Shown piece after piece: positions 5,650 through 45,900 of a DNA stretch of 45,900 bases (its first letter is position 1; every line of letters starts with the position of its first letter). The DNA lies in NCBI GenBank assembly GCA_028284905.1, contig JANQQU010000079.1, forward strand, positions 1 through 45,900, read 5' to 3'. Both the position numbers and the translations under genes were made by a program. The notes below the pieces were generated by a model. It searched no databases. It was given only the letters and a program-made list of their open reading frames with translations, and was not told the DNA's origin. The stretch comes from Calditrichia bacterium (GTDB lineage: Bacteria; Calditrichota; Calditrichia; RBG-13-44-9; J075).

Positions 5650-5662
5650 TATTCCAGAATAT

Positions 5663-6787: not shown

Positions 6788-6800
6788 TACTGCTGTTCGC

Positions 6801-7796: not shown

Positions 7797-8022
7797 TTAT
7801 CATCATCCTTGATTCAATTTGCAATCTTTGTAAAGTCTAAATTTCGGAAAATAAACATTCATGCCAGGGTCACTTTAGTCGGTCGTTTTCAATCTTAGGC
7901 GCAATTAATAATTCCGGTCGCTCGCAGCAATTGGCAATTGTGACTATAGAATGCCGTAAGAATTATTATACAAAAAAAAATTGGAAAACCGCATGCATTC
8001 TTTTCGAAGCCGCATCATCTGT

Positions 8023-12251: not shown

Positions 12252-14090
12252 TTAACGGGGGCGGGAGAAAAGTAAAACATCGCGCAGTTGCTCTGCATTA
12301 CGCGCATTTTTCCATCCTTCCTGGAATTTCGGATTCTCTACCAAATGGGCGATGCTCATCAATGCCCGGAGGTGATAGTTGCGCTCATCGGGGGAGCCAA
12401 CCAGGGCGATAACCGTTTTAACCGGCTGATTCAGCTCGGAGAATATCGCACCTTCCCGGCAACGCACCGGCAGAATATCAAAAACGTTCTCCCCTTCGAC
12501 AATGACATGCGGAATTGCTAATCCGGGATGAATAACCGTGCTCGATTCTTTTTCCCGGTCGATAAACGATTGATAAACGACCTCTTCATCAAGATTGAGG
12601 CGTTTGGAGAGCGTCGCCGCCATTTGATGAAATAAGTCTTTTGCGCTAATCGATTCCTCGATGTCAAGAATGTCGCATTCCTGTAATAAATGATCGAATC
12701 GATCCAGCTCTGTGCCACTTCTTTCCAGGGAGATATGGCGCAATTCATCTTCCAGGTTACTTCGGTCAATCTCCTTGGAAGTGATCGATTTTACCAGGTA
12801 GACAAACGCCGACTCACGGTCAATTTTCCTCCAGACGTAACCAATATACCAGGCACCGGCGAGCAGCCCAAACGCCGCTGTTAAGAGCAGCGGTATCATC
12901 CCCATTTCAAAAATCAGGAAAAAATAGAGCACAATGGCAATAATTTGCAGCCAGGGGTAGAAGGGCGAGCGATAAACCGGCCGATAGCTTTGCAGCTTGC
13001 TGCTGCGCATAACGATCACCGAGATATTTACCAGAATGAACATCAGGATCATCATCGTTGAAGCGGTTTTTACCAGATCTTCAATGGATAGGGCAGCAAC
13101 GACAACAATAATAAATGTAGAAGTTAGGAGAATCGAGGTATGGGGCGTGTTGAATCTTTTACTGGTATTTGCCAATGCTTCCGGCACCAGCCCGTCCCTG
13201 CTCATCGCCATGGGGGAACGGGAGGCGGATAAGATACCGGCATTTGCGGTAGTAACGAACGCCAACAGCGAGGCAGCTTCAATCGCAAGAATTCCCCATC
13301 GGCCGAAAATTTGTTCCGCACTGAGAGCGACGGGAATCAGGGAGCCGGCCAGTTGCTCCGGCGCAACGGTGCCAATCGTTACAAAAATTACCAGCAAGTA
13401 AAGTATACTAACGACAAAAAATGCCAGGAACATGCCTTGCGGCAAATTGCGCCCGGGGTTTTTTACCTCTTCGCCCATGCTGGCCACTTTTGTGAGTCCG
13501 CCGAATGAAACGAAAATCATTCCGGCAACCCCGAATATTGTTTCGATATCGACGGTCATAAACGGGCTGAAGGAAGTAGGCATCACCGCCTGGATCCCAA
13601 CGAAACTATGCAAGAGTAAAATGCCCAACAGTCCAAACACCAACAAGGTTTGCAATACCCCAACGCTTTTAACGGATAATAAATTTATAATCGTAAAGAT
13701 GACACAGCTGACAATCGCAACCAGTTTGATGCCAAACTCCAGGGGAAAGGGCAGGAAAAGCGCGCCGACAGTGCCAATACCGATTAAAGCAAAAGCTGCT
13801 TTTAGGGCAATGGAAAGCCAATTTAAAAATCCGGCATAAGTGCCCAGCAGCGGTCCAAGGCTGCGCTCAATGAAAAAATAGCTGCCACCGGCTTTTGGCA
13901 TTGCAGTGCCCAGCTCTGCTTTGGAAAGCATTGCAGGGATAATAAACAAACTGGCTAGTCCATAGGCTAAAAGCACAGCCGGGCCAGCTTTCGCGAAGGC
14001 AATGCCTGGTAATACAAATAAACCGGAACTAATCATCGCTCCGGAAGCGAGGCAGAAAACGTCTAAACGACTGAGCTCTTTTTTCAGCAT
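12252..14090 (-). CDS. APC-family amino acid permease fused to a PTS EIIA-type domain
   Basis: A 612-residue protein. Residues about 8-425 form an APC transporter: SGAMISSGLFVLPG near the N-terminus is the substrate-site loop of helix 1, and about 12 hydrophobic helices follow. A linker leads to a C-terminal domain (about 465-608) like PTS EIIA of the fructose/nitrogen type. It has SSTVIHPGLAIPHVIV with the candidate phosphorylated His528, and a second conserved His in RNYHLRAL. EIIA domains usually receive phosphate from HPr or NPr; here the domain may gate transport by phosphorylation state or by binding. That role is inferred. Amino acid specificity is unknown. No PTS EI or HPr gene is in the window. 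Confidence 0.88.
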   Translation of the reverse strand: MLKKELSRLDVFCLASGAMISSGLFVLPGIAFAKAGPAVLLAYGLASLFIIPAMLSKAELGTAMPKAGGSYFFIERSLGPLLGTYAGFLNWLSIALKAAFALIGIGTVGALFLPFPLEFGIKLVAIVSCVIFTIINLLSVKSVGVLQTLLVFGLLGILLLHSFVGIQAVMPTSFSPFMTVDIETIFGVAGMIFVSFGGLTKVASMGEEVKNPGRNLPQGMFLAFFVVSILYLLVIFVTIGTVAPEQLAGSLIPVALSAEQIFGRWGILAIEAASLLAFVTTANAGILSASRSPMAMSRDGLVPEALANTSKRFNTPHTSILLTSTFIIVVVAALSIEDLVKTASTMMILMFILVNISVIVMRSSKLQSYRPVYRSPFYPWLQIIAIVLYFFLIFEMGMIPLLLTAAFGLLAGAWYIGYVWRKIDRESAFVYLVKSITSKEIDRSNLEDELRHISLERSGTELDRFDHLLQECDILDIEESISAKDLFHQMAATLSKRLNLDEEVVYQSFIDREKESSTVIHPGLAIPHVIVEGENVFDILPVRCREGAIFSELNQPVKTVIALVGSPDERNYHLRALMSIAHLVENPKFQEGWKNARNAEQLRDVLLFSRPR

Positions 14091-17998: not shown

Positions 17999-19987
17999 AT
18001 GGACAATCTTGGGCTTTTTCTTGATAAACTGGCACAGTCGGATGACGAACTCACCCTGCTTTGTGATTTATTCGATTGGTTACGTCCGGAGGATTCTTCG
18101 CAAATTGATAGGGTTCAGGATAAAGTCCATCGGTTTGTCGAAGCTATGGATGCGAATCCCGGGCAAGCGACCATCATTCGCGAGAAAGTGCATACATTTA
18201 TTCTTGATATGCGCTTTTTACCGCTCTACAGTGACACGGGTATTTTGCCGCGCCGTAGTTTTGCAAATGAATTTTGGCGCCGGGTTTATGACCTGCTTAT
18301 GCCGAAACCGCCGGTCATTTTCAGTGCAAAAAATCTACTGGAACAAATTTTCAATAAACCAGCTGATCACAAATGGGTGCAGGCGTTGCCGGATGATGTA
18401 TGGATGGCACTTTTCTTTGCTTTCATCCCGGAAGCTAACAATAAAAAAGTGAAGGACCATTTGCTGAGCGAGGCACTGTATGCGTTGGAAATGCTTTCTA
18501 TCTGGTTGGCGGCGGAAGAAATGGAGGATGAACTGCTGCGTTTGAATCCTGCCATTGTTGAATATGATTCGAACTTTATCGCCCAGGAACGGGAAATCAG
18601 CCAGTTTGTGGCGGCATATCGCTCCCGGTTAATCCCGACCGCCAAGGAAAAGCAGACAGATGCCGCCCATGCCTGGATTATGCTGGATCAATGTGATGAG
18701 CAGTTACAGGGATTTCGGCAACTGGCGCTCAGCAAAGGGAGTGATCTTAAACTAACCTACCTGCTGGAACGCCTGGAACAGGTTCTGACGCGTATCCAAA
18801 AACTTCTGGACATTCTTGATGAAGAAAAAGAGGGAGTGTTCAGAACGAAATGCCTGGCGCTTTTCCGGCAGTTTGTGGGAGAATTAAATACTGAGCGTAG
18901 CGTCACCAGCTTAATTCGGCAAACGACTTATCTGCTGGCGAAAAGCGTAACCAATCATGCCAGTGAAACCGGCGAGCATTACGTTACCGAAAACCGTCGC
19001 GAATATATTCGCATGCTCGGTAGCGGATTTGGGGCCGGGGTATTCATTGCAATTATGGCGTTTATTAAGATTCATATTTCGACGCTGGATTTGACGATGG
19101 AGTGGAACACATTTTGGGTGAGCATGAACTATAGTCTGGGGTTTGTGCTTATTCATATGCTGCACTTTACTGTTGCAACCAAACAACCGGCAATGACCGC
19201 TGCTTATATTGCCAAAAAACTGGAACATGCCGATCACGGTGCAATCGATCGGCAAGAACTCGCTCAGCTTACTATCAGAGTGGGGCGTTCTCAATTTGCA
19301 GCGATTTTGGGGAATGTCGCGGCGGCCCTACCTTTTGCGCTGCTTATTGGGGCTGGTATCAATGCATTTCTTGGCAACCCGCTCATCGATACGGGAAAAG
19401 CGGCGTCCCTCATGCAGGAACAAAATCCGATAACCAGTTTGGCACTTTTTTATGCGGCAATTGCCGGTGTGTGGTTATTCCTCTCCGGTTTGGTTGCCGG
19501 TTATTTTGACAATCGCTGCCTCTATCTGGATCTTCCGGGTCGTATTCGGGAACATCCATTGCTAAAACGAATTATGCCAAATAAGCTGCGCAATCGCTTC
19601 GCCGATTATATTGGTGAACACCTTGGGGCGCTTTGGGGGAACTTCTTTTTCGGGGTGATGCTTGGCGCGACTGCCTACCTCGGCTACATACTTGGGTTGC
19701 CTTTGGATATCCGTCACGTTGCTTTCTCGGTTGCCAATGTTGGATTTTCATCAACCGTTGCCTGGCCGGGAATATGGATCTTTCTTGAGTTTGTTTTATT
19801 TGCGCTGCTAATCGGTGTGGTAAATTTAACGGTAAGCTTTATTTTTGCGTTAAATGTCGCGGTACGTTCGCGGGGAATACGAATCGGTAAACCTGGCGCT
19901 ATTGCCAGCGCATTCTGGAAAGAAATGCGCAATCGGCCCTGGGCACTTTTTCTGCCAACGGCGATAGAATCCCAGCGTCGTCATTAG
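17999..19987 (+). CDS. Gcr-family membrane protein (annotated as 'site-specific recombinase')
   Basis: A 662-residue protein resembling the SpecificRecomb/Gcr family. The N-terminal half (about 1-330) is soluble and helical, including MDNLGLFLDKLAQSDDELTLLCDLFDWLRP and FLPLYSDTGILPRRSF. The C-terminal half contains six to eight hydrophobic helices (about 342-362, 372-392, 435-455, 475-505, 545-570 and 590-635). The recombinase label is historical, from a Neisseria gene; no integrase or resolvase catalytic motif is visible and the membrane topology argues against a recombinase. Its true function is unknown. The ATG at 17999 has GAGG about 8 bases upstream. It may be cotranscribed with the LOV phosphatase gene. 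Confidence 0.7.
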   Translation: MDNLGLFLDKLAQSDDELTLLCDLFDWLRPEDSSQIDRVQDKVHRFVEAMDANPGQATIIREKVHTFILDMRFLPLYSDTGILPRRSFANEFWRRVYDLLMPKPPVIFSAKNLLEQIFNKPADHKWVQALPDDVWMALFFAFIPEANNKKVKDHLLSEALYALEMLSIWLAAEEMEDELLRLNPAIVEYDSNFIAQEREISQFVAAYRSRLIPTAKEKQTDAAHAWIMLDQCDEQLQGFRQLALSKGSDLKLTYLLERLEQVLTRIQKLLDILDEEKEGVFRTKCLALFRQFVGELNTERSVTSLIRQTTYLLAKSVTNHASETGEHYVTENRREYIRMLGSGFGAGVFIAIMAFIKIHISTLDLTMEWNTFWVSMNYSLGFVLIHMLHFTVATKQPAMTAAYIAKKLEHADHGAIDRQELAQLTIRVGRSQFAAILGNVAAALPFALLIGAGINAFLGNPLIDTGKAASLMQEQNPITSLALFYAAIAGVWLFLSGLVAGYFDNRCLYLDLPGRIREHPLLKRIMPNKLRNRFADYIGEHLGALWGNFFFGVMLGATAYLGYILGLPLDIRHVAFSVANVGFSSTVAWPGIWIFLEFVLFALLIGVVNLTVSFIFALNVAVRSRGIRIGKPGAIASAFWKEMRNRPWALFLPTAIESQRRH

Positions 19988-30237: not shown

Positions 30238-31581
30238 ATGATCAAATTAAAAAAGGGGCTGGATCTCCCTATTACCGGCGCGCCGGAACAAGTGATCCGT
30301 GATCAAAAAGACACTTCCACGATCGCGGTTTTAGGGATCGATTATGTAGGGATGAAACCTACCATGATGGTCCGGGTGTCTGATGAAGTTAAGCTTGGGC
30401 AAGTACTGTTCACGGATAAGAAGAACCCATCAGTGAAATATACTTCCCCGGGCAGCGGGAGAGTGATTGCAATTCGCAGAGGAGAGAAACGAGCGCTTCT
30501 CTCTGTTGTTATTGAACTTTCCGGAGATGAGGAAATAACCTTTAATTCTTACTCGCCCGATCAGCTGGTTTCTCTGGAGCGTGAGAAGATCGTTGAACAG
30601 CTTTTGGAATCCGGTAGCTGGACCGCTTTGAGAGCCCGGCCGTTTTCAAAAGTTGCCGACCCGGATACTACCCCCCATTCCATTTTTATTACTGCTATGG
30701 ATACCAATCCGCTGGCGCCGAGTATCGAGAAAATCCTCGAAGGCCAGGACGAAGACTTTCGGAACGGTCTGCAAATTCTCTCTAAATTAACCGATGGTAA
30801 ACTACATTTATGTAAATCTCCTGGTGCAAATATTCCCAGTGCGGATTTGGATAATCTGTCGGTAGAAGAGTTTTCCGGGCCGCATCCGGCGGGACTGGTT
30901 GGCACTCATATCCATTTTTTGGATCCGGTTGGCCGGCAGAAAACGGTTTGGTATATCGGCGTGCAGGATGTTGTCGCATTTGGTAAGCTTTTTACCACCG
31001 GCAAGATCGCTGTCGAACGCATTGTAGCCCTTGCCGGTCCGGCAGTAAAAGAGCCTCGTTTAATCAAAACTCGTATCGGCGCTTCACTCGCTGATGTGAC
31101 TGCGCGGGAATTGAACGGTGATGACAACCGGATCGTATCCGGGTCAATTCTTTCCGGACATGCGGCCGATGAGGCTGTTGGCTTTCTCGGCAGATATCAC
31201 CAGCAAATTTCTGTATTGGCGGAAGATCGCGAGAGACGCCTGCTTGGATGGCTGGACCCGGGACTGAACTTATTCTCTGTAAAAAATATCGTCCTTTCGA
31301 AACTGACCCCGAAAAAGAAGTTCAACTTTTCCACTTCGACGAATGGTGAGCATCGCCCGATTGTTCCCAGTGGGAATTACGGACAGGTAATGCCGCTGGA
31401 TCTCTTGCCTTTATTCCTGATGCGGGCATTGGCGGTCGATGACGTTGAGGAAGCAGAAAGACTGGGCTGCCTGGAATTAGATGAAGAAGATCTGGCTTTA
31501 TGTGCCTTTGTTTGTCCTTCGAAACTGGACTTCGGTCCGTTGCTCAGAAGAAATTTAACGATTATCGAAAGGGAAGGATAA
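30238..31581 (+). CDS. nqrA: Na+-translocating NADH:quinone reductase subunit A
   Basis: Peripheral quinone-site subunit of the Na+-NQR complex, 447 residues, the same length as the Vibrio protein. Family blocks seen: [16 protein letters not shown] at the start, [26 protein letters not shown], and [19 protein letters not shown]. No membrane helix, as expected. First gene of a tight operon of six subunits plus maturation factors. The ATG at 30238 follows GAGGA at a spacing of about 9 bases. Confidence 0.97.
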
Positions 31582-31585
31582 TATT

Positions 31586-32809
31586 GTGAAATTCTTGAGA
31601 CAGATCCTTGATAAACAAGGAAAACTTTTTGAAAAAGGCGGTAAGCTGGAAAGGTTATACCCACTGTATGAAGCTGGTGATACCTTTCTATACTCCCCGG
31701 GGATGGTTACCCGCAGCGCACCGCACGTTCGGGATGGGATGGATTTAAAGCGAATGATGATTTTCGTCGTTTTAGCGCTTACTCCGACAATTCTTATGGC
31801 GTTCTACAATACCGGCTACCAGGCAAATCTGGCTTTACAAAGTTCTGGTCTTGCCGCTGCCGCCGGATGGCGAGGCGAGTTGATGGCGGCACTGGGAGTG
31901 GGTATCGATCCCACCAGCCTTTTTGATAATTTTGTGCATGGCGCACTTTATTTTCTACCGGTATATATAGTAACGTTGGCAGCGGGCGGATTATGGGAAG
32001 CGGTGTTTGCGACCGTAAGACGTCATCCTATCAGTGAAGGATTTTTAGTTACCAGCATGCTTTTCCCCCTTATCCTGCCGCCAGATATTCCTTACTGGCA
32101 GGTCGTCATCGGTATCTCATTTGGTGTAGTCATTGGTAAAGAAGTCTTCGGTGGTGTTGGGATGAACATTCTTAATCCCGCATTAACCGGCCGCGCTTTT
32201 CTCTATTTTGCCTACCCCGCTCAAATTTCCGGGGACCAGGTCTGGGTCGCGGTAGATGGATACAGCCGGGCAACCCCGCTGGCAGAATTTGCCGATCCGA
32301 AGTTTGCCGATGCAGCGGTCAGTTATTCCGATACTATGATGGATGCATTTTGGGGCTTTATCCCCGGTTCCATGGGCGAGACCTCGGTGGTGGCTTGTTT
32401 GATCGGCGCAGCTATTCTGATCGGTTCGAAAATCGGATCATGGCGGATTATGCTCGGATGCGTTGTCGGAATGATCGGCACGGCGTTTCTGTTTAATGCG
32501 ATTGGTAGCGATACCAATCCGATGTTTGGTGTAACCGCGCTGGAGCATTTTGTCATTGGTGGATTCGCTTTCGGCACCGTCTTTATGGCGACCGACCCGG
32601 TGAGCGCCTCGCAAACCCGGCAAGGGCAGTACTGGTATGGTATTCTCATCGGACTGCTAACGGTAATGATTCGGGTGATCAATCCCGGATATCCGGAAGG
32701 CATCATGTTGGCAATCCTGTTCGCAAACGTCTTTGCCCCGGCCATCGATAAAATTTTTGTAAATATGCACATAAAGAGAAGGCAGTTAAGATATGGCGCA
32801 ACAAGATAG
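31586..32809 (+). CDS. nqrB: Na+-translocating NADH:quinone reductase subunit B
   Basis: Integral membrane subunit, 407 residues, carrying covalently bound FMN and part of the Na+ path. Eight to ten hydrophobic helices are visible. Family segments include [27 protein letters not shown]. The FMN-acceptor motif is DGYSRATPL with Thr230 as the attachment residue. The usual S-G-A-T is read here as S-R-A-T, a departure from the ApbE consensus that deserves checking. GTG start at 31586, 4 bp after the nqrA stop, with AAGGA upstream. It overlaps nqrC by 17 bp. Confidence 0.96.
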
Positions 32810-33584
32810 TGTTAAAAAAATCGTTTTAGTCGCGCTGGGTGTCTGTCTGGTTTGTTCCCTGTTGGTTTCTTCTGTTGCTGTTGGCTTAGCTGCCCGCCAG
32901 GATGAAAACCGGCGGTTGGATAAAATCAAAAATATCCTGCGTGCTGCCGACCTGTATAGTGACGGCGTCGATGTTGGTAAAACCTACGCGGAAAAAGTAG
33001 AACCGGTCTTGATTGAGTTGAGTTCAGGAGAAACTGTCGGGGAAGATCAGTTTAATGAATTCCTGAACATCGAAAATTTTAATATGGACGAGGTTACGAA
33101 TCACCCCGAGTATGGCGAAGCAATTCCCAGGGACGAAGACATTGGTGGTATTAGCCGGAAGCCGAAGTACATGGTGGTTTACCTGGTAAAAGAGAACGAT
33201 CAGCTCAGTAAAGTGATCTTACCGGTTCATGGTAAAGGACTGTGGTCTACATTATACGGATTTCTTTCCCTGAATAATGACCTGAAGACCGTTTCCGGTA
33301 TTACTTTCTATCAACATGCGGAAACGCCCGGTCTCGGTGGCGAAGTGGATAATCCCCGCTGGCAGGCTATCTGGAAAGGCAAAAATGCATTTGATGAAAG
33401 TGGTGGATTGATTATCCAGGTCCTTAAAGGACAGGTAGATCCGTCCAGCCCGAATGCCGGCCATCAAATTGACGGACTGGCGGGGGCAACCATCACCACT
33501 CGTGGGGTAGACAATTTTGTGAAATATTGGTTAACCGAAAATGGATATGGTCCGTTTTTGAACAAATTACGTGAGGGAAATTAA
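32793..33584 (+). CDS. nqrC: Na+-translocating NADH:quinone reductase subunit C
   Basis: Subunit with one N-terminal membrane anchor (about 9-32) and a periplasmic FMN-binding domain, 263 residues. The covalent flavin motif is DGLAGATIT near the C-terminus (acceptor Thr233), matching the ApbE target consensus. [36 protein letters not shown] is the conserved FMN-domain core. FMN is attached by the ApbE encoded at 36648-37709. The ATG at 32793 lies within the end of nqrB (17 bp overlap), so the two are translationally coupled. Confidence 0.96.
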
Positions 33585-33585
33585 C

Positions 33586-34206
33586 ATGAACGAATATAAA
33601 AAGGTCCTGCTGGATCCTTTGTTCAATAACAACCCCATCGCGCTACAAGTTTTGGGGATCTGTTCAGCACTGGCGGTAACCACGAAATTGGATACCTCGG
33701 CAGTGATGATACTGGCAGTGATATTTGTAGCGGCATTTTCCAATTTATCGGTAAGCTTGGTAAGAAATCACTTACCGAGCAGCGTGCGTATTCTGGTAGA
33801 AATGACCATCATTGCTTCCATGGTAATCGTTGCGGATGAATTCATTCAGGCGTTTGCCTACGATATCAGTAAGCAGCTGTCGGTATTCGTTTCGCTGATT
33901 ATTACCAATTGTATCATTCTGGGAAGAACCGAAGCATTTGCGTTGAAAAACCCCCCGTTGATCAGTATGATGGATGGGATTGGAAATGCCCTCGGATACG
34001 GAGTGGTGTTACTTTTCGTAGGATTTTGCCGGGAACTGTTTGGCTCCGGGAAACTTTTCGGAATGCCCGTTCTGGCCCTGAATACCGAAGGCGGCTGGTA
34101 TGTGCCCAACGGTATGATGCTATTATCACCCAGCGCCTTTATTTTAATCGGCCTGTTTATCTGGGCGGTAAGAACCTGGAAACCCGAACAAGTAGAGGAA
34201 GATTAA
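33586..34206 (+). CDS. nqrD: Na+-translocating NADH:quinone reductase subunit D
   Basis: Integral membrane subunit of 206 residues with six hydrophobic helices, homologous to NqrE. Conserved cysteines are in [17 protein letters not shown] and [17 protein letters not shown]; with the NqrE cysteines they hold the intramembrane iron centre. The ATG at 33586 follows GAGGGA and gives the family N-terminus [21 protein letters not shown] at 33571 would overlap nqrC and is less likely. It lies 1 bp after nqrC and 1 bp before nqrE. Confidence 0.96.
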
Positions 34207-34207
34207 A

Positions 34208-34819
34208 ATGGTAGAACATTATCTGAATTTATTTTTAACATCGGTGTTTATCGAGAATTTGGCCCTGGCTTTCTTTCTGGGAATGTGTACTTTCCTGGCA
34301 ATCTCCAAGGAAGTAACCACTTCTTTTGGCCTGGGAATCGCCGTTGTGGTTGTGCAGTCCATTACGATCCCGGTAAATAACCTGATCTTTCAAAATCTGT
34401 TGAGGGAAGATGCCCTGGCATGGGCCGGACTGGAAGGCGTCAATCTTACCTTTCTGGGCGCGGTTACCTACATTGGGGTAATTGCTTCGATGGTGCAAAT
34501 TCTGGAAATGACCCTGGATAAATTTGTGCCCAAGCTATACAATGCGCTGGGAATATTTCTTCCCTTGATCACTGTAAATTGTGCAATCCTTGGTGGATCT
34601 CTATTTATGGTAGAGCGTAATTATAATTTCGGCGAAAGTGTAGTTTATGGCTTTGGCTCTGGTGTTGGCTGGGCGTTGGCAATTGTCGGCCTGGCTGGTA
34701 TTCGTGAAAAAATGAAATACAGTAATGTGCCGCCCGGCCTGCGGGGATTAGGTATTACCTTTATCGTCGTTGGTTTGATGGCGATGGCATTTATGTTGTT
34801 TTCTGGTGTCCAACTGTAA
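34208..34819 (+). CDS. nqrE: Na+-translocating NADH:quinone reductase subunit E
   Basis: Integral membrane subunit of 203 residues with six hydrophobic helices in inverted topology to NqrD. The conserved cysteines are in [18 protein letters not shown] and [14 protein letters not shown], the ligands for the iron centre shared with NqrD. GAGGAAG precedes the ATG. nqrF starts 10 bp after its stop. Confidence 0.96.
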
Positions 34820-34829
34820 AGAGGAAATT

Positions 34830-36065
34830 ATGAGCGAACTGAACTTGATCTTGTTAGGCTCCTTTATGTTCATTCTGATTGTCCTGGCACTGGTAGGAGT
34901 TATTCTATTTGCCCGCTCCCGCCTGGTTGCCAGTGGTAATGTTAAAATAAATATTAATGATGACCCGGAAAAAGCCCTGGAAGTGCCGGTGGGTGACAAA
35001 TTATTGAGCGTGCTGGCAGATAACGGCATTTTCTTATCTTCCGCCTGCGGCGGTGGTGGCACCTGTGCCCAGTGCAAAGTCGTCTTAAAAGAAGGCGGCG
35101 GTGATGTACTGGCCACCGAGCGTTCCAAATTAACCCGTGGGGATATTCGCGAGAAATGGCGCCTGTCCTGCCAGGTAGCGGTAAAAGAAGATCTTAGCAT
35201 CGAAGTACCGGCAGAGATGTTTGAAATTAAGAAGTGGGAATGTACTGTGCGTTCCAATAAAAACGTCGCTACCTTTATTAAAGAATTGATCCTGGAACTC
35301 CCGGAAGGAGAAAATGTCGACTTCCGCGCCGGAGGATATATCCAGATCGAAGCCGACCCGCATACCGTTAAATACAGCGATATGAAGGTCGAAGCGGAAT
35401 ACAAGGGCGATTGGGATAAGTTTGACCTTTGGCAGTATGTTTCGGAAGTGAAGGAGCCGGTGGTACGTGCTTACTCCATGGCGAATTATCCGGAAGAGAA
35501 AGGCGTCATTATGCTTAATGTGCGCATCGCCTCTCCGCCTCCGCGTATGCCCAATGTGCCTCCCGGACAGATGTCTTCTTTTATCTTTGACTTACAGCCG
35601 GGCGACAAGGCAATTATTTCCGGGCCATTTGGCGAGTTCTTCGCGAAAGACACCGAAGCAGAAATGATCTTCATCGGTGGTGGCGCCGGTATGGCACCGA
35701 TGCGTTCACACATTTTTGATCAGCTGCGCCGCTTGCACTCGAAGCGGAAGATATCTTTCTGGTATGGTGCAAGAAGCTACCGCGAAGCTTTCTATGTAGA
35801 AGACTTTGACGAGCTGCAGAAGGAAAATGATAACTTTAAATGGCACCTGGCCCTTTCCGAACCGTTGCCGGAAGACAACTGGGAAGGATATGTCGGCTTT
35901 ATTCACCAGGTGTTGTTTGATAATTACCTGAAAGATCACCCTGCACCGGAAGATTGTGAGTATTATATCTGCGGACCCCCGATGATGAATAGTGCTGTTT
36001 TTAAGATGCTGGATGAGCTGGGCGTTGAGCCGGAAAATATCCTCTTTGATGATTTTGGCGGTTAA
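34830..36065 (+). CDS. nqrF: Na+-translocating NADH:quinone reductase subunit F
   Basis: NADH-oxidising subunit, 411 residues. One N-terminal helix (about 5-28) anchors it. A 2Fe-2S ferredoxin domain follows with cysteines 73, 79, 82 and 114 ([12 protein letters not shown] and RLSC). The FAD domain contains RAYSMANYP, and the NADH domain has [14 protein letters not shown] and [14 protein letters not shown]. All cofactor motifs are intact. The ATG at 34830 has AGAGGA before it; a GTG at 34806 lies inside nqrE and is unlikely. Electrons go from NADH through FAD and 2Fe-2S to NqrD/E, then to the flavins of NqrC and NqrB. Confidence 0.97.
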
Positions 36066-36174
36066 CCAAGCTTGGATAAACGAGCGTAAAGGTAATCGAC
36101 TTATAAATACAGGGATGTAGATTTATTCGTATTCCTAAAACCTTAACTGCGTATCATAACAATGGAGTAACGGC

Positions 36175-36651
36175 ATGATAAAATCACTAACAGCAGAATC
36201 AATTCTCGAAGAGAAGGGCAGTGAGATGCATTGTGTAGCACCGGATACTACCATATCAGAAGCGTTAAAGGTGATGGTTGAGAAAAGAATCGGGGCCTTG
36301 CTTATCAAAGAAGAAGAGCAGATTGTCGGCATCTGGACGGAGCGGGATCTCATGTATAATACCGCCGATGGTATTGATCCACAGTCTGCGAAAATCGGCG
36401 ATCTGATGACTAAAGGACTTATTACCGCTCCGCACAACGCGCCCGCGCTGCAACTGGCCGATCAGTTTATCGGTCGACGTCTGCGTCATTTATTGATTGA
36501 ACGCGACGGCAAGTATATCGGACTGCTCTCCGCCGGTGATGTCTTAAAAGCGAGTCTTCGTAATAAAGCAGAGGAAGCGGATGAGCTGAACGCCATCGTT
36601 CACCTGCAATTTTATGATGAGTGGAAGTGGAAGAAAAAGAAGAAGCGATGA
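36175..36651 (+). CDS. Protein with two CBS domains
   Basis: A 158-residue soluble protein with a CBS pair (about 8-65 and 74-135). Typical segments are TTISEALKVMVEKRIGALLIKEEEQIVGIWTERDL and RRLRHLLIERDGKYIGLLSAGDVLKA. The C-terminal tail is charged (EWKWKKKKKR). CBS pairs usually bind AMP, ATP or other adenosyl compounds and act as energy sensors; that use here is inferred. The gene lies 109 bp after nqrF. Its stop overlaps the apbE start in ATGA, so it is part of the NQR transcription unit and might tune NQR function. Confidence 0.85.
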   Translation: MIKSLTAESILEEKGSEMHCVAPDTTISEALKVMVEKRIGALLIKEEEQIVGIWTERDLMYNTADGIDPQSAKIGDLMTKGLITAPHNAPALQLADQFIGRRLRHLLIERDGKYIGLLSAGDVLKASLRNKAEEADELNAIVHLQFYDEWKWKKKKKR

Positions 36652-37709
36652 AGCAGTTTAGTACCGATGTCGTTTTTAAGAGATTTTCACTGTGCTTAAT
36701 CATATGCTTTTTATTATGCTTTCTGCCCGGGTGCACCGGGCAAAACCAGCCTGCGGTCCTGGAGCAAATCCAGGGCCGTACTATGGGCACTACCTTTGTG
36801 GTCAAATATAAGAATACCGCTCTTTCCCATACCGTTCCTCCCTTGCAACAGGTTGAAAAAGAAATCAACGATTTGTTGGTCGAAGTTAATCGCCAGATGT
36901 CAACCTACATTAGCGATTCCGAGATTTCGCAGTTCAATCAGTTTGCAGAGACGGATTGGTTTCCGGTCTCGGAAGACTTTGCCAAAGTCGTACAACTCGC
37001 CCTGAAAATCAGTGATGATTCCCGCGGCGCTTTTGATGTGACCATTGGGCCCCTGGTGAACCTCTGGGGATTCGGACCGAAAAAGCAAGAAGATGTTGTG
37101 CCGGATGAAACAGAGATCGAAAAGCTCCTGTCCGAAGTAGGCTACAGCAAGCTTGCGGTTAGAATGACACCGCCGGCAATAAAAAAGGAGTCCCATCCGT
37201 TGTATTGCGATTTATCCGCGATAGCCAAAGGTTTTGGTGTAGACAAAATTGCCGATTACCTGGACAGTCTGGGCATTGAGGATTACATGGTGGAAATCGG
37301 CGGCGAGGTCCGGGTAAAAGGGAGCAATCAGCAGGGGCTTTCCTGGAGAATCGGCATCGAAGTACCTAACGTCGGCGGTGGTCAGCAAAGCGTCGTCGCT
37401 CTGGAGGATGTTGCCATGGCTACCTCCGGAGATTATCGGAATTATTTCGAAAAGGATGGAGAGCGCTACTCCCATACGATCGATCCGCGCAATGGCTGGC
37501 CTATTCGCCATACCCTGGCTTCGGTAACGGTTATTCATCCTTCATGTGCAATCGCCGATGCGATCGCGACGACGATTAACGTGCTGGGTCCGGAAGCGGG
37601 ATTGCAGTTTGCACAGGAACAAAAACTGCCTATATTTATTATAATTAAAGAAGAAGGGGAATTTGTGGAAAAGATGACCCCTTCTTTTAAAAAATATTTA
37701 TTAAACTAA
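36648..37709 (+). CDS. apbE: FAD:protein FMN transferase (ApbE), lipoprotein
   Basis: Enzyme that transfers FMN from FAD to threonines of target proteins, here most likely NqrB and NqrC. It has 353 residues, with a lipoprotein signal (hydrophobic stretch ending LPGC). Motifs are RTMGTTFVVKY, GAFDVTIGPLVNLWGFG, DLSAIAKGFGVD, EIGGEVRVKG, YSHTIDPRNGWP and CAIADAIATTINVLG, as expected for the FAD/Mg2+ site. I take the ATG at 36648, which overlaps the CBS gene stop by 4 bp; a GTG at 36621 gives a longer frame. The location right after nqrABCDEF fits flavinylation of the complex outside the cytoplasm. Confidence 0.95.
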   Translation: MKQFSTDVVFKRFSLCLIICFLLCFLPGCTGQNQPAVLEQIQGRTMGTTFVVKYKNTALSHTVPPLQQVEKEINDLLVEVNRQMSTYISDSEISQFNQFAETDWFPVSEDFAKVVQLALKISDDSRGAFDVTIGPLVNLWGFGPKKQEDVVPDETEIEKLLSEVGYSKLAVRMTPPAIKKESHPLYCDLSAIAKGFGVDKIADYLDSLGIEDYMVEIGGEVRVKGSNQQGLSWRIGIEVPNVGGGQQSVVALEDVAMATSGDYRNYFEKDGERYSHTIDPRNGWPIRHTLASVTVIHPSCAIADAIATTINVLGPEAGLQFAQEQKLPIFIIIKEEGEFVEKMTPSFKKYLLN

Positions 37710-38489: not shown

Positions 38490-39863
38490 ATGACTTTCCA
38501 ATGGAAGAACCAGCGTTCTTTAATTTGGATGCGGCTATTGCCAACGCTGCTTTTATTAGCCCTTACGCTTTGCAGCATTATTTGGTACGGTGCTTATTAT
38601 TCGAACCAGCCAGCCGAATTTTTTCGACGCTGGCCATTTATCCTGTGGATTGCCACATCTTTCCTTTTTGCTGTTTACTTCTTCGTGTCTTTATTTCGAA
38701 GACGTTTGCAGAATGCCAATAACTATTTCTGTTATCTCTGCATCGTTTTGTTCGTTGGGCTGGAAATGACTCTACAGATAAAACCTGAGCTGACACCGGG
38801 CCGGCTAATGCCTTATTTACCCAAAAAAACCGTCGAGAAAATTCGCATTGCAATTGCACACAAGTGGGGTTACTACACTGGCGAGAACATGATCTTTCAC
38901 TACGTACCGTCACAACAATTAAACTATGGGCAATTGAAGCGACCCTGCATCTTTATTGATGAAGAAGGATTTAGAAATCCCAACCAAAATGCCAAAAAAT
39001 ACGACTTCGTCCTGCTGGGAGATTCAATGATTTTCGGCCTTGATGCGTGTAAAGACCTGGCTGATCGGTTTAAAGCGATTGGCAACTCGGCGATAAATCT
39101 TGGCATGGAAGGTTATGCACCTCAGCAGTATAGAGATGTTTACAAGAAGTATATCATTGAGAAGAACGTTCAGCATAAAAATGTGCTGGTGTTTCTCTAC
39201 ATCGGTAATGATTTTACTGATGCCGAGGAATACCAGCGGATCCAGGATGAAAATGGCGACTATACAGATTATGTTATCGGGGAGACATATGGCAATCCCC
39301 GGTTGCCATTAGTTCTCAATCTGCTGAAAGGGTTACCCCATTATCTCTTACAATCCTGGCAAGCCGAATTCGATGACGGCGACTTCCCGGGGAATTCCAC
39401 GGAAGATACGGAAGATATGATAGATGGGCGGGTAATTGAATTGCCATATACAACCTTCGGGGTAGACGATTGGTTATGGCCACCTCCGGCAATTAATGGT
39501 GATGACGCAAAATGGGCACTGGTGAGAACAGCGCTTGACGAAATTATTTCGCTCGCGGTGCAGTCCGAGGCAACCCCCTGGCTGTTTTTACTGCCCTCAC
39601 CGCTTACCGTTTATTCGGAGTTTGAACTTAATCCTCCCCCCAATAATAGCTTGCATAAGTTCGATCGACGACATGCCGCCATCCGGAATCTGCTCGAAAA
39701 ATATGCCAAATCAAAGAGCGTTACGTTTTTTGATTTGGATACGCCACTCAAAGTTGAAATCGCAAACAAATTCCTGTTCGTGGCGAAAAATGACGGTCAT
39801 TTTAATGACAGCGGATTCGATAAAGTCTTTGAACAGATCACTGCCGTGCTCGGCATTCGATAA
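38490..39863 (+). CDS. Membrane-anchored SGNH/GDSL-type hydrolase
   Basis: A 457-residue protein with three N-terminal hydrophobic helices (about 12-35, 47-69 and 78-95), then an extracytoplasmic SGNH domain. Block I is VLLGDSMIFGLD with Ser179, block II GMEGYAPQQY, block III YIGND, and block V NDGHFNDSG with Asp435 and His437. All four SGNH residues are present. It is similar in layout to the 8937-10121 product but more canonical. It sits convergent to the CesA-like GT2 gene 46 bp away, next to the second polysaccharide cluster, so removal or transfer of acyl groups on that glycan is the likely role. The ATG at 38490 follows GGAGGA. Confidence 0.78.
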   Translation: MTFQWKNQRSLIWMRLLPTLLLLALTLCSIIWYGAYYSNQPAEFFRRWPFILWIATSFLFAVYFFVSLFRRRLQNANNYFCYLCIVLFVGLEMTLQIKPELTPGRLMPYLPKKTVEKIRIAIAHKWGYYTGENMIFHYVPSQQLNYGQLKRPCIFIDEEGFRNPNQNAKKYDFVLLGDSMIFGLDACKDLADRFKAIGNSAINLGMEGYAPQQYRDVYKKYIIEKNVQHKNVLVFLYIGNDFTDAEEYQRIQDENGDYTDYVIGETYGNPRLPLVLNLLKGLPHYLLQSWQAEFDDGDFPGNSTEDTEDMIDGRVIELPYTTFGVDDWLWPPPAINGDDAKWALVRTALDEIISLAVQSEATPWLFLLPSPLTVYSEFELNPPPNNSLHKFDRRHAAIRNLLEKYAKSKSVTFFDLDTPLKVEIANKFLFVAKNDGHFNDSGFDKVFEQITAVLGIR

Positions 39864-39909: not shown

Positions 39910-41541
39910 TTACCTTTTTTGATGTTCCGGATTGAAATGGTCCGGAATCAGTTTCGGATTAAAAGGTGCGGGAAATTGCATAAAGGAGCTTAGGAGAATC
40001 GTAGTTAAAAACAGAAGGCTAATTATCGCCGATAAATGAATCCAGGAATTTTGTATGTTGCCGCTCAGGTACCCATAAATCCAACTAAAGCCTAAAAGAA
40101 TCATCAGTACGAAATGCGGCCAAAGGGAAGTATCTAGCTTCCGGCTTATTTTCACTTTAGGGGTAAGCGTATACTGCGTTGCGCGATTTCTGAAAACATC
40201 AACCAGGGCCATAATAAAATAAGGCCATTTTACCAATTGAAGCATGGCGATTTGCCAATGGAGGCCGACTTCGTTTTTCTGATCCAGATAAAAACGTTGT
40301 CGATAAAAATCACAAAGTAGCAAAGCCCCGAAAACAAACAGGCTGCGCGTGACCGTTTCTTCCGTGAATAAATCGACGGTATTTCCTGTCGCCAACAGGC
40401 ATAGGTATAAAATGGTGCCCATGGCAATTACAATTGTTTTGTATAAATAGGTAAACCCATGAAGAAAGCTGATTAGTCGGGTTCGAAAAGGATATTTCTG
40501 CGATAATTTATTAAAATAGAAAAATTTTAAGTCAATGACAGAGCGTGCCCAGCGGCGTTGCTGGACGAGATATCCTTGCCAGTCTACCGGTGTAAGGCCC
40601 TTCACCAGAATTTCCGGCACATAAACCCCTTTCCACTGAAGAGAGCGATATATCATCGTCGCTAAAAGATCATCTGCATCATGTGCCGCAAACCCCCCGA
40701 CTGCTTTTAATGCACTTACCCGATGGGTATTATGACTGCCGATAATTATTGGATATCCCATTGAAAAAGCAGCCATCTGCAGGGATGAATTAAATGCGTA
40801 GGTTTCCTGAGCTGCGCCGTTGGCGATCACGCTTGCTTTTTGATTATAATAGATAGGCGCAACCTGAACGTAACCTATCTGCGGGTCGGAAAAATAACCT
40901 AATATCCGGTCAAGAAATGCCGGGTCAGGGATATGGTCAGGATCAAATCCGCTTATAAAGTCATATTGCTCGTAGGCGACCTCATTGAGCCAGGCATTAT
41001 AATTGCCCCACTTCGTTTTCGCTTTATAAGTTCCCTGCTGCTGTTGATATTGCGGTAGATGCTTCCGGCTAAAATGATAGACGCCTAACTCTTCACAAAG
41101 TGATTTTACCTGTGGATCATCGTTCTCATCCAGTACCCAGGTATCATGCGGGTATTGGACGTTTTTCATCGCTTTTAGGGTGATTGCCAACATTTCCAGC
41201 GATTCCACATGCGATACAAATGTTGTCGCAATTGCAACTCGCAAACCTTTTGGGGCCGGGATAGGTACCGGTTTACGCATTTTTGCCAGAAACATCCATC
41301 GACCCAGGTAATTGCCAAGGGTAATAATTATCAAAACAGAAATGATGCTGTAAATAATTGGATAGTTAAGCCAGCCTTCTAATGTAAACCAGTATCTTAA
41401 AGCATCGAAGATGATGCCAAGTATTATTATCGTTAAGCTGGCATAAAGCAGGTAATCCCACCAGCGAAAAACCTTTTCAGTGACTACCGGTTTACTAACG
41501 GCATCAGTCTTTTCCTTAAGTACTTGATCTTTGCGTACCAC
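39910..41541 (-). CDS. Membrane GT2 glycosyltransferase, cellulose-synthase-like
   Basis: A 543-residue processive-type glycosyltransferase. Two N-terminal membrane helices (about 29-47 and 60-80) and about four C-terminal ones (about 350-375, 390-410, 465-485 and 500-520) flank the catalytic domain. Catalytic elements are VLDENDDP, GFDPDH (D200, D202), HDADD and the QxxRW motif QQRRW (327-331). Enzymes of this kind polymerise beta-linked glucans, hyaluronan or chitin-like chains and extrude them. The substrate is undetermined. It starts with GTG at 41541, with GAGGA upstream, and is the last gene of the second (-) cluster, 111 bp after the triple-domain gene. It could polymerise a chain that the deacetylase modifies. 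Confidence 0.88.
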   Translation of the reverse strand: MVRKDQVLKEKTDAVSKPVVTEKVFRWWDYLLYASLTIIILGIIFDALRYWFTLEGWLNYPIIYSIISVLIIITLGNYLGRWMFLAKMRKPVPIPAPKGLRVAIATTFVSHVESLEMLAITLKAMKNVQYPHDTWVLDENDDPQVKSLCEELGVYHFSRKHLPQYQQQQGTYKAKTKWGNYNAWLNEVAYEQYDFISGFDPDHIPDPAFLDRILGYFSDPQIGYVQVAPIYYNQKASVIANGAAQETYAFNSSLQMAAFSMGYPIIIGSHNTHRVSALKAVGGFAAHDADDLLATMIYRSLQWKGVYVPEILVKGLTPVDWQGYLVQQRRWARSVIDLKFFYFNKLSQKYPFRTRLISFLHGFTYLYKTIVIAMGTILYLCLLATGNTVDLFTEETVTRSLFVFGALLLCDFYRQRFYLDQKNEVGLHWQIAMLQLVKWPYFIMALVDVFRNRATQYTLTPKVKISRKLDTSLWPHFVLMILLGFSWIYGYLSGNIQNSWIHLSAIISLLFLTTILLSSFMQFPAPFNPKLIPDHFNPEHQKR

Positions 41542-41652: not shown

Positions 41653-44343
41653 CTATTGTGAATCCGCCAATAGAGGAACAGGCGTCTTTACCGGTCCCTT
41701 CCCAACTTTAGCGGCAAAAGTTATATCTGTATCTGCACCACCAATTTCGATCCTCGGTAAAGCGAGGGGCGCATGATGTTTATTTATCCGACCCGGCTCA
41801 CTGGTAAATGCCAATTGGTATTGACAAAACCCGGTCAGGTACATAATTCTTCGGTTAAATTCACCATATGGGTAAGCCATGTTTTTTATCGATATATCGA
41901 GGTTTTTTTCAAGCAGTGAGCGGGAGTCTTCCAGTTGTTTTACAGCGTCCCGCATTGGCAGATTGGTTAATATCGGATGAGTGCGAGTATGTGCGCCAAA
42001 GGTAACGCCTTCTGCCTGTAACTCCCTGATGTCTTCCCAATCCATCAGCTTTATTTCTTCGCCAAATTCCCGATCCCACAGATTTGTCTTACCAATCAGA
42101 TCACTGACCAGAAAGACATGTGCCGAAAACCCGTATTTTTTTAACAGCGGCCAGGCGTATTCTTTAAAATCGCTATAGCCATCATCAAAGGTAATCAATA
42201 TTGCTTCTGCCGGTATGGGAGTCGATTCATTTAACCAGCTCAGGCAATCATCGATTGTAATGGAAACAAAGCCTTCATCTCTCAGATAGCGTAATTGTGC
42301 TTCGAAATTTTCCGGTGTTACACGATATTCGTCCAATGCGCCTACTGCATTCGGCGAAACGCTATGGTATAGCAGTGTTGGGAATTCATCCGTACAGCCA
42401 TGCCAAAGCACCTGGGATGAAATGAAGGGATCTAATTCAGTGGGCTGAGCCATTTGAATAATTTCCGGGGCTGTATTGCCATTCACCGGTGATTTTTCCG
42501 GCGCCTTTTGAAACAGTTGCACCCGGTAAAGCGGTGTTTGAATTTCTTTCAGAAAAGTTAAATTTGGCAGGCTGGAAAACGTTTCGCCAATTCCCTTGGC
42601 GCCGAACGAATGCTCCCAGTTAAAACCGGTTTTGTGAACATCATCGATAACAACATTGCCATGGACCATAACCAGATATCCATCCGGCAGTATACTATTT
42701 GCCATTTTTTGAGCTATTTTTCGTAACCTTTTCCGGGAGCCGGCATAATAGAGCACTTCGCTGCAAATCATTAATTGATAGCGGCCGTCTATTTTTTCAC
42801 TGACCAGGTCGAGCCGCTGGTATTGGATGTTTTGATGTTCGCTGCAGCGTTCGGCGCATCTTTTTAAGGCGATTTCTGAAACATCGGTGGCCAGGAGATT
42901 TTTAACTCGCGGCGCCAACTGAACTGTGAAATGGCCTTCGGCACAAGCCAGCTCAAGCGCATTATCAATTTCTATATCCGGAATGATTTCCAGGGTTTGT
43001 TCATATTTCTTTTGTTCATATTCACTGGTATATCCCCAGGGATCTACCTCTTGATCAAACAGGTCTTCAAAGAAATGGGTATCTTCCGAAGGGAACAAGC
43101 GGCGGTTGACTCGATGCGCCAGCCGATAAAGACTGCCATTCAGTTTAAGGGTGCTTTCCACATGCCGCTTGACATAGTGAATGACGATCCACGCTTGTCG
43201 TTTCCCCCAACTTTTCGCACGAGGGTAAAGTAGTGTCTTTTTATAAAACGAAGCCATTACTCGGTTAAGCCCCCCGGTGTCCCCCATATAGATACGGGTT
43301 ATCCTTGCCGGATACCGAATAACCCGATCGGCCATGCCAACAGCTGAAGAATGTTTTTCCAGATTCCGGAGAAATGTTAATGTTTTTTCTATCATTGGCG
43401 GCCATATTTCCGACCATTGCTTAAGTGGTTGGGAAGCCGATAATAGTGCAGCTAAAGTAATGCATTCTGCGATGGCCAGCGGATCCCAGCCCAGCCAGCG
43501 CTCTTCATCCAGCAGTTCCAACAAATAACTGGGATCTTCACCACGGCCAATCAGCAATCCGGCAGCGGAACAGAGTAAATAATACTTTTTCGAAGTCAGA
43601 TCTTCATCTGGTAATCCGGCAACATATTTCGGGTGTTGCTTCGCTAAGCGCCAGTCAGATTTATGACCTTGTTCGAGCACTTTTAAGCCATCCTCTAAAA
43701 TTCGCCGCCCGTCCATAGAGGCGGATCCGGCTCGCATCCTGGCCGGTGCCAATATTTGCGGCACTCTGCCAAACAAGGTGCCTGCTCTTGAAACACGCTG
43801 CCATAAGTCCCAATCCTCGCATGTCGCTAAAGTCGGATCAAATCCACCGACCTCGCGGAGGATTTCTGTTTTTACAAGATAAGCATGGATGGCAAAGGGG
43901 CACTCTACAGCATGCAATGGAAAAAGATCCCCCTTATCTCTGCCGATATCTTTGAAAAAATAATAATCGTCCGGGGAATACCAGCACCATCCGCAATATA
44001 CTGCGCCTAATTGGGGATCATTATTTAATACTGCGGTCATTAATTCCAAATGTTTGGGTAAAATCCAGTCATCCCCATCAAGAAAAAGGGTCCAGTCGTA
44101 TTTGGCTTCCGCAAGACCTCTGTTTCGGGCTTCGCTAACGCCGGAATGATTTACTTGAATAATGCGAAAACGGTCATCTTTCTGCGCAAATCCCTGCGCA
44201 ATCTCCAACGTGGCATCTGTAGATCCGTCATCGATTAATAATGCTTCCCAATGCTGATAAGTTTGCTCGCTAATTGACTGCAATGTCTTTTCTAATGTCT
44301 CAGCGATATTATACATCGCAACGATAATGGTTACTTTAATCAT
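41653..44343 (-). CDS. Trifunctional GT2 glycosyltransferase / NodS-like methyltransferase / NodB-like deacetylase
   Basis: An 896-residue fusion. First domain: GT2 glycosyltransferase (about 1-215) with VTIIVAMYNIAETLEKTLQSI, LLIDDGSTDAT and FLDGDDW (metal-site D89, D91). After a helical linker comes a SAM methyltransferase (about 425-615): DPWGYTSEYEQKKYEQTL, then ALELACAEGHFTVQLAP (motif I, near 461). Together these match NodS-like enzymes. The third domain (about 650-880) is a polysaccharide deacetylase with ILITFDDGYSDF (near 716), GAHTRTHP (near 784) and MAYPYGEF, the metal and catalytic motifs of the NodB family. The ATG at 44343 shares one base with the upstream stop and follows GGAGG. 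It probably modifies an aminosugar glycan made by the flanking GTs. Confidence 0.9.
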   Translation of the reverse strand: MIKVTIIVAMYNIAETLEKTLQSISEQTYQHWEALLIDDGSTDATLEIAQGFAQKDDRFRIIQVNHSGVSEARNRGLAEAKYDWTLFLDGDDWILPKHLELMTAVLNNDPQLGAVYCGWCWYSPDDYYFFKDIGRDKGDLFPLHAVECPFAIHAYLVKTEILREVGGFDPTLATCEDWDLWQRVSRAGTLFGRVPQILAPARMRAGSASMDGRRILEDGLKVLEQGHKSDWRLAKQHPKYVAGLPDEDLTSKKYYLLCSAAGLLIGRGEDPSYLLELLDEERWLGWDPLAIAECITLAALLSASQPLKQWSEIWPPMIEKTLTFLRNLEKHSSAVGMADRVIRYPARITRIYMGDTGGLNRVMASFYKKTLLYPRAKSWGKRQAWIVIHYVKRHVESTLKLNGSLYRLAHRVNRRLFPSEDTHFFEDLFDQEVDPWGYTSEYEQKKYEQTLEIIPDIEIDNALELACAEGHFTVQLAPRVKNLLATDVSEIALKRCAERCSEHQNIQYQRLDLVSEKIDGRYQLMICSEVLYYAGSRKRLRKIAQKMANSILPDGYLVMVHGNVVIDDVHKTGFNWEHSFGAKGIGETFSSLPNLTFLKEIQTPLYRVQLFQKAPEKSPVNGNTAPEIIQMAQPTELDPFISSQVLWHGCTDEFPTLLYHSVSPNAVGALDEYRVTPENFEAQLRYLRDEGFVSITIDDCLSWLNESTPIPAEAILITFDDGYSDFKEYAWPLLKKYGFSAHVFLVSDLIGKTNLWDREFGEEIKLMDWEDIRELQAEGVTFGAHTRTHPILTNLPMRDAVKQLEDSRSLLEKNLDISIKNMAYPYGEFNRRIMYLTGFCQYQLAFTSEPGRINKHHAPLALPRIEIGGADTDITFAAKVGKGPVKTPVPLLADSQ

Positions 44344-45647
44344 CACTTACCTCCATGTGTACTTCTATTCTGGAAATAGAAGTTAATTCCTGAAAAACAT
44401 CCGCTTATTTCTGAACGTATTAAGCGGGATTGAAAAGCCGGGTCACCGGAAAAAATCCGAATTATATTTTTTAGATAAACCAGGGGAAGAACTACAAATA
44501 GCCGAAAAAGATTACCAAAATCACGGTAGCGTTTGAACTGAAAAAGTAAGGCTGTTACATGCCCACGCATATAGAAATGAAGCTGACTGGAAAGGCTCTC
44601 GATATCAGAACGATGGGTGTGAAAAACGACGGCTCTTGGTTCATATTGGCATTCCCATCCATTTGCCAGTGCGGCATAAAACAATGCGCTATCCTCACTA
44701 CAACCTGCCTGGCCCGCGCCGAGCCGTTCATCGAATCCGCCAATCGCATTAAACACAGATTTTCGAATGGCCATATTTCCGCTGCCGCCGATATCCCAAA
44801 CCGGCACTCCGGTTTTACGGTGCTCCTGGTAGTAGGCGCTGTCAAATGTAAATGGGGTATAGCCGCGCACGAAGCTGAATCGTTTTTCGAACATATATTG
44901 AATTTCATTCTGTAAATCGCCGGGCAGCACTAATCCCGTTGCTAAGCCAGTGCTCTTTTCTGTAAAACAATTTACCAGATGAGATAGCCAGTTTGGATGA
45001 ACAACTTCATCGTCGTCGACAAAAGCAATTAGATGTCCTTTGCTCTGCCGCACTCCAGTATTTCTAGCGGCACTGGACCCCCGTTTTTTTTCGGATAAAT
45101 ATCGGACCGCTGGAAATTGCTGAACAACTTCCCGGGTGGCGGGATCGCCAGCGGAGTTATCAACAACGATGATCTCGTATGGTTTTAGTTTTAGCGCTTG
45201 GAGGGATGTCAGGCATGCAAAAAGTTTCTTCGGGCGTTGGCAGGTCGCCAGAATTACGCTGACTTTAAAAGACGAACTCTCTGGTTCCTCTGCGGATGCT
45301 ATACCGAGTTTTGCAAATGCATTTAGTTGATCTCTTAATTGCTGAATGCCTTTGCCGGCGGTGCTGATATTGTTGCTTTTAAATAAAGAATCTTCGTTTA
45401 AGTTCTTATTTAACAGCAGTTTTGAGTATTTTAGATAGGTGTCGCTTACCCGGGTCTGTACAAGAGAGATAAGTTCTGAAGCAGACTGAGGGAAATTTTC
45501 CGGACGTAGATACATTTGCCCAAGCGGGATTTTTCGCCACCAGAAAATTAAGAGTGTTGTTGCATCCCGCCTGATTGTCGGAATGGAAATTTCTCCATCA
45601 AGATGCCAATTTAATAGATGATATTCCTTTGCATTCATCGCAGCCAT
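44343..45647 (-). CDS. Glycosyltransferase family 2 with N-terminal extension
   Basis: A 434-residue protein. Residues 1-125 form an extension rich in helices and loops, with no clear domain. The catalytic GT2 domain (about 127-350) has VSVILATCQRPKKLFACLTSL, EIIVVDNSAG, KKRGSSAARNTG and FVDDDEVV (D211-D213). NMAIRKSVFNAIGGFDERLG and EDSALFYAALANGWE give the acceptor/base region. The C-terminus has one or two hydrophobic segments (about 385-400). It is first in the second (-) glycan cluster and translationally coupled to the trifunctional gene. The ATG at 45647 is used; a second ATG at 45638 is possible. Confidence 0.83.
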   Translation of the reverse strand: MAAMNAKEYHLLNWHLDGEISIPTIRRDATTLLIFWWRKIPLGQMYLRPENFPQSASELISLVQTRVSDTYLKYSKLLLNKNLNEDSLFKSNNISTAGKGIQQLRDQLNAFAKLGIASAEEPESSSFKVSVILATCQRPKKLFACLTSLQALKLKPYEIIVVDNSAGDPATREVVQQFPAVRYLSEKKRGSSAARNTGVRQSKGHLIAFVDDDEVVHPNWLSHLVNCFTEKSTGLATGLVLPGDLQNEIQYMFEKRFSFVRGYTPFTFDSAYYQEHRKTGVPVWDIGGSGNMAIRKSVFNAIGGFDERLGAGQAGCSEDSALFYAALANGWECQYEPRAVVFHTHRSDIESLSSQLHFYMRGHVTALLFQFKRYRDFGNLFRLFVVLPLVYLKNIIRIFSGDPAFQSRLIRSEISGCFSGINFYFQNRSTHGGK

Positions 45648-45732: not shown

Positions 45733-45900
45733 AACCCTTTCAGGGTAAAGTTTTTTGGGATTTTAACCCTGGGCTGAAAAGCACGTCAGCCCAGGGTTAA
45801 AATCTGTAACCGGTTCTCCCTTCGGGGCTTTGCGGTAGTAATACGCCGAAGGCGTTACAGATCTCAACCGGGGGCGTTGTATTTTCGCGCCCCCGGTTGA
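45733..45900. repeat. Cluster of perfect hairpins, REP-like, running to the window edge
   Basis: At least four inverted repeats lie within 168 bp. 45759-45777 pairs with 45786-45804 (19 of 19). 45864-45876 pairs with 45888-45900 (13 of 13). ctgtaac (45804-45810) pairs with gttacag (45854-45860). There is also a small acgcc-gaa-ggcgt hairpin at 45843-45855. The pattern suggests a REP or IS200/IS605-related element whose other end is outside the window. Confidence 0.65.

Follow-up and report, generated by a model that had tools for sequence, protein, structure and literature searches.

The stretch of DNA that was analysed (hereafter the window, 45,900 nucleotides) encodes a single protein in which a glycosyltransferase of family GT2, a NodS-family methyltransferase and a polysaccharide deacetylase are joined in one chain. 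We propose that this trifunctional protein is a cytoplasmic multi-module enzyme of glycan assembly, which would add an N-acetylhexosamine (HexNAc) to an ABC-exporter-dependent surface glycan, deacetylate it and N-methylate it, a proposal to which we give an even chance. A widespread three-domain enzyme, already named in databases, may in that case be the source of N-methylated amino sugars at bacterial surfaces; the finding has no bearing on symbiosis signalling.

Domain composition of the trifunctional protein

The sequence-only reading had placed GT2, NodS-like and NodB-like domains in one chain, and this composition was confirmed within a single open reading frame (ORF). Pfam assigned, in that order, a GT2 domain (PF00535, 1.7e-30), a NodS domain (PF05401, 1.3e-20) and a deacetylase domain (Polysacc_deac_1, PF01522, 3.1e-24), all exceeding their gathering cut-offs. 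The ORF extends over 41653-44346 (-), with an in-frame GTG at 44346; the ATG at 44343, six bases 3' of a GGAGG ribosome-binding site, is the likely start codon, and residues are numbered from it (Table 1). The AlphaFold2 model, obtained with a 40-row alignment, has a mean pLDDT of 86 and three well-predicted domains, only residues 345-419 and the final 14 being poorly predicted, and one Foldseek search of the PDB with the full-length model returned matches for all three. The catalytic motifs are intact in each domain and conserved across 40 diverse homologues. Hydropathy analysis revealed neither a membrane helix nor a signal in the protein, and deacetylation is accordingly expected in the cytoplasm, ahead of export. 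A chance or artificial fusion, or an assembly error, was ruled out by the E-values and by at least 76 full-length homologues having the same architecture in a single ORF.

Table 1. Features of the trifunctional gene and its surroundings (window positions).
Feature	Positions	Strand	Description
Upstream GT2 gene	44343..45647	-	434 aa; Pfam
Trifunctional protein gene	41653..44343	-	896 aa; ATG start, stop 41653-41655
GT2 catalytic domain	43666..44343	-	Residues 1-226; Pfam, motif conservation, Foldseek
Helical region	43312..43665	-	Residues 227-344; modelled with fair confidence, without Pfam family
Low-confidence linker	43087..43311	-	Residues 345-419
NodS-family SAM methyltransferase domain	42505..43086	-	Residues 420-613; PF05401, motifs, Foldseek, tree
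CE4 deacetylase domain, NodB2 type	41704..42396	-	Residues 650-880; Pfam, motifs, Foldseek
Downstream CesA-like membrane GT2	39910..41541	-	543 aa; QxxRW at 327
60-bp contig-end sequence	45841..45900		Same sequence as the C1 contig end

In the GT2 domain, the motifs DxDD (89-92) and ED (176-177) vary little or not at all among the 40 homologues, and the fold matches in Foldseek were WrtF, chondroitin polymerase/synthase and heparosan synthase. The parallel previously drawn with NodC did not hold, given that the NodC model (TIGR04242) yields 26 bits over about 113 residues against a cut-off of 550 and that NodC itself is a weak BLAST match. Between this domain and the methyltransferase lies a spacer (residues 231-424) of about 195 aa, compared with about 250-310 or 440-530 aa in other homologues. 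The spacer falls into three length classes, the short one being common to the window, two Acidobacteriota, one genome assigned to Myxococcota and one cyanobacterium.

The methyltransferase domain has motif I (ELACAEG, 464-470) and D487, both conserved in the 40 homologues. Its best solved match is NodS itself (3ofk, E 5.1e-15, TMt 0.86; Foldseek, predicted model), and a place in the NodS group is thus not contradicted by the fold search. What stands of the NodS-like label is the fold and the family PF05401; membership of the true NodS clade does not. The NodS equivalog model (NF041650) gives 82 bits for the domain against a cut-off of 300, with 342 for R. etli NodS, and free-standing NodS-like proteins of Acinetobacter and Rubrobacter score 77 and 75 bits, close to the trifunctional methyltransferase. 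In a tree of 51 domains, where free-standing relatives are thinly sampled, the trifunctional group (86/98), NodS (100/100) and the free-standing NodS-like proteins form three separate groups.

For the C-terminal domain, the NodB-like assignment was half right: it is a CE4 domain with its metal ligands present (D721, H785, H789), so the active site does not refute a Nod-like reading, but it is not of the NodB subtype. Its conserved catalytic residues are D720/D721, H785, H789 and H660. The motifs LLYH (657-660), TFDDG (718-722), HTRTH (785-789) and AYPYG (823-827) follow the published NodB2 consensus in order, that is, a VLMYH-type motif first, then a two-Asp motif, HTx2H and AYPYG, with no motif 4 (PMC10967932). 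The features of NodB1, RPPYG as motif 3 and a C-terminal motif 5, are not found, the domain having AYPYG and an N-terminal YH motif. Taken alone, it scores 97 bits with PgaB and 64 with IcaB, below their equivalog cut-offs (TIGR03938, 321.9; TIGR03933, 248), and 16.4 with NodB, where the cut-off is 240 (TIGR04243) and R. etli NodB reaches 320. The deacetylase folds matched in Foldseek were PplD (TMt 0.86), IcaB (0.85) and PgaB (0.73-0.76). On the match of its motifs to the NodB2 consensus, the domain is of the circularly permuted NodB2 type, that of PgaB, IcaB and PplD and of PNAG deacetylases, and not a NodB. Two of the 40 homologues (L015 and L044) have lost the metal ligands and kept the GT2 and methyltransferase motifs, which suggests that deacetylation is not essential everywhere. 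These two genes are intact ORFs (L015:9974-12721 and L044:7120-9837) in which H660 is lost too, and both lie near Wzm/Wzt genes.

Operon, neighbours and distribution

As read from the sequence, the gene is located between a GT2 gene and a CesA-like GT2 gene. The TGA stop of the former and the ATG of the trifunctional gene overlap (TGATG), and a 48% identical homologue occupies the same position in an Acidobacteriota genome (L052). The latter matches GT2 families, scores 57.7 bits with the CelA model, far under the cut-off of 699, and gave no match to PilZ; judged by these scores, the label "CesA-like" denotes a distant resemblance. Homologues of this enzyme are found at the same position in two Acidobacteriota (27-28% identity), one of which (L016) retains the trifunctional - CesA-like GT2 pair, while the order in L052 is ABC exporter - GT2 - trifunctional - CesA-like GT2.

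The window is a complete contig (C77), with 253 bp between its end and the start codon side of the upstream GT2 gene. The gene order of L052 was used to predict an ABC exporter past this end, and the L052 exporter was searched against the window's own genome. The best match (C1:136791-138524 (+), 42% identity; next best 35%) leaves 174 bp to the end of contig C1 and is oriented as the operon requires. The final 60 bases of C1 are the first 60 of the reversed window, and among the five exact copies of this 60-mer in the genome only these two are at contig ends, the other three being internal. The repeat (C1:138639-138698 for the copy in C1) is hairpin-like, has two near copies in addition to the five exact ones, and probably broke the assembly at the window end. 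From the exporter match near the C1 end and the shared terminal 60-mer, we infer a C1-C77 join and, most likely, an operon ABC exporter - GT2 - trifunctional - CesA-like GT2. What is new here is that the window is a whole contig whose 60-bp overlap with C1 points to an exporter-led operon.

Several other genes of the window may be mentioned. The product of a convergent gene (38490-39863 (+)) is predicted to have three membrane helices at its N-terminus and weakly matches SGNH hydrolases, with a score short of the Pfam cut-off; it could be an esterase or acetyltransferase acting on glycans. Five glycosyltransferase genes of the GT1/GT4 and GT2 types form a second run at 3434-8883 (-), the one at 6801-7796 having a partial GT2 match only. 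A fusion of an amino acid permease with a PTS EIIA type 2 domain is encoded at 12252-14090 (-), a full-length match to the "site-specific recombinase" family PF10136 (705 bits) at 17999-19987 (+), and, as read from translations, an Na+-NQR operon followed by an ApbE-like gene at 30238-37709 (+).

The fusion is not unusual, and the architecture itself is not new, since RefSeq already names it "trifunctional glycosyltransferase/class I SAM-dependent methyltransferase/polysaccharide deacetylase" (e.g. WP_013334356.1, WP_243254667.1, WP_094088823.1), and the window protein, a single ORF, agrees with it in its three domains and their order. Gloeothece, Sulfitobacter and Rhizobium all have plasmid records with proteins so named. 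When 84,980 species genomes were scanned, 243 relatives were obtained; 76 of the best 80 loci have the full architecture in one ORF, across 12 named phyla; hosts of homologues include anammox planctomycetes, acidobacteria and cyanobacteria. In 59 other genomes, 39 of them from the same class, no match to the gene was obtained at E <= 1e-60. Despite this absence, a recent acquisition is unsupported, as the GC content of the gene (0.458) equals that of the contig (0.45), and the sporadic distribution could reflect loss or old transfer. A literature search found no functional paper on the trifunctional architecture or on NodS-like fusions; an Azolla-Nostoc paper treats NodB-like deacetylases in cyanobacteria and nowhere mentions NodS or the trifunctional fusion.

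Neighbours were compared at 52 loci, most Mesorhizobium copies being excluded. At 26 of the 52, an exporter with ABC_membrane + ABC_tran domains lies within 9 kb; nine have a Wzm/Wzt pair, which makes 35 of 52 together. With 13 exporter-like genes in the 8.55 Mb of the window's genome, the chance expectation is about 3% per 18-kb stretch, a figure that is a guide only, the loci being related. Rhizobial loci show the order epimerase - GT - trifunctional - GT2 - ABC exporter - GT2, and a CesA-like neighbour is absent at most loci. Separate-gene versions also occur, in which NodS-like methyltransferases accompany GT2s and deacetylases; the deacetylase is a CE4 enzyme in Rubrobacter, whereas Acinetobacter and Deinococcus have one of PIG-L type. 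As these two kinds of deacetylase are unrelated in fold, the recurring association is consistent with methylation of a free amine. The loci L096:3225-6235, L125:881-5694 and L099:2957-7608, from Acinetobacter, Deinococcus and Rubrobacter, hold these genes as a cassette that also includes an acyl-CoA dehydrogenase.

Proposed function and alternatives

We propose that the N-terminal GT2 would add a sugar, probably N-acetylhexosamine, to a lipid-linked glycan, in whose synthesis the upstream GT2 and the membrane-bound CesA-like GT2 would also take part. The NodB2-type CE4 domain would then take off the acetyl group, the NodS-type domain would methylate the freed amine, and the product would be flipped by the ABC exporter whose gene heads the operon. 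This order follows that established for NodB and NodS, the latter N-methylating only after deacetylation in a rhizobium (PMC5080398). We infer the donor, the acceptor, the order of the steps, N- over O-methylation and export by the ABC protein from the predicted folds, the intact catalytic motifs, hydropathy, the operon layout and the conserved neighbours. The earlier suggestion of an N-modified amino sugar as part of a surface glycan stays the best reading.

It can also be hypothesised that the domains act at different positions, the methyltransferase O-methylating a hydroxyl (or acting on another residue) and the deacetylase releasing an amine at a different site; the two decorations would then be independent. 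MMAR_2193, an O-methyltransferase of polyketides that its authors align with NodS-like methyltransferases (PMC8730385), shows that NodS-family resemblance does not fix which atom is methylated. The position of the domain outside the true NodS clade and the two homologues that keep the methyltransferase despite a degenerate deacetylase site point the same way. However, the nearest solved structure is NodS, and the repeated association of NodS-like methyltransferases with two unrelated deacetylase folds also speaks against this reading; separate decorations are somewhat unlikely, while being a serious alternative.

The PNAG-deacetylase type of the CE4 domain and the adjoining CesA-like GT2 could instead suggest a PNAG-like or cellulose-like system, in which the CesA-like enzyme would make and extrude a polymer that the trifunctional protein then modifies. 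The characterised NodB2 deacetylases PgaB and IcaB work outside the cytoplasm, on the extruded polymer, whereas the trifunctional protein is predicted to be cytoplasmic. Most homologues, moreover, are accompanied by an ABC exporter or Wzm/Wzt and have no CesA-like neighbour, which makes this alternative doubtful.

Another possibility, which we likewise consider improbable, is that the enzyme caps the chains of ABC-exported glycans, the single HexNAc that it adds, deacetylates and N-methylates stopping growth and marking the chain for export. A capping role is conceivable, since multi-module methyltransferase enzymes are known in ABC-exported glycans, and, if true, it would represent a new terminator chemistry in at least 12 phyla, used instead of WbdD-type methyl-phosphate caps. 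No kinase was matched by Pfam in the trifunctional protein, which thus differs from a terminator of the WbdD/O7 type, and a long helix (381-416) is predicted with very low confidence, no coiled coil being demonstrated.

Lastly, a pathway like that of Nod factors, with modified chitin oligosaccharides as signals, shares the same three enzyme classes but is highly improbable, a Nod-factor origin being rejected on the lack of a NodA acyltransferase match in the window's genome (PF02474, E<=1), the NodB2 deacetylase and a GT2 unlike NodC, with homologues in anammox planctomycetes, acidobacteria and cyanobacteria also speaking against it.

Comparison with known systems

The comparison with Nod factor synthesis is retained for the methyltransferase fold and the logic of deacetylation followed by methylation, and abandoned for the deacetylase subtype and the GT2. 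Rhizobial NodS shares its fold and sequence family with the trifunctional methyltransferase; it is, however, free-standing, in a clade of its own and about 30-33% identical, whereas the window methyltransferase is fused. PgaB, IcaB and PplD resemble the window deacetylase in motif order and consensus and in metal ligands, and are its best fold matches, but the latter is predicted to be cytoplasmic and is fused to a GT2 and a methyltransferase.

The trifunctional proteins of RefSeq have the same domains in the same order, with 30-43% identity, and often adjoin a GT2 and an ABC exporter. The window protein differs from them by its short spacer and CesA-like neighbour, both common to two Acidobacteriota. 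The window contributes a member that is short, well modelled and set in a clear operon, in which concerted modification, a cap and separate decorations are testable in one protein.

Multi-module enzymes with a methyltransferase are already known in the synthesis of ABC-exported glycans, namely ORF6 of Klebsiella O7 (PMC11231755) and, as outlined in PMC3482155 (see also PMC11231755), WbdD of E. coli O9a, where methyltransferase and GT modules are combined in one protein or complex. The window protein resembles these systems in combining GT modules with a methyltransferase and in the predicted export of the glycan by an ABC transporter; theirs is a kinase-methyltransferase terminator on a coiled coil, whereas the window protein has a deacetylase instead.
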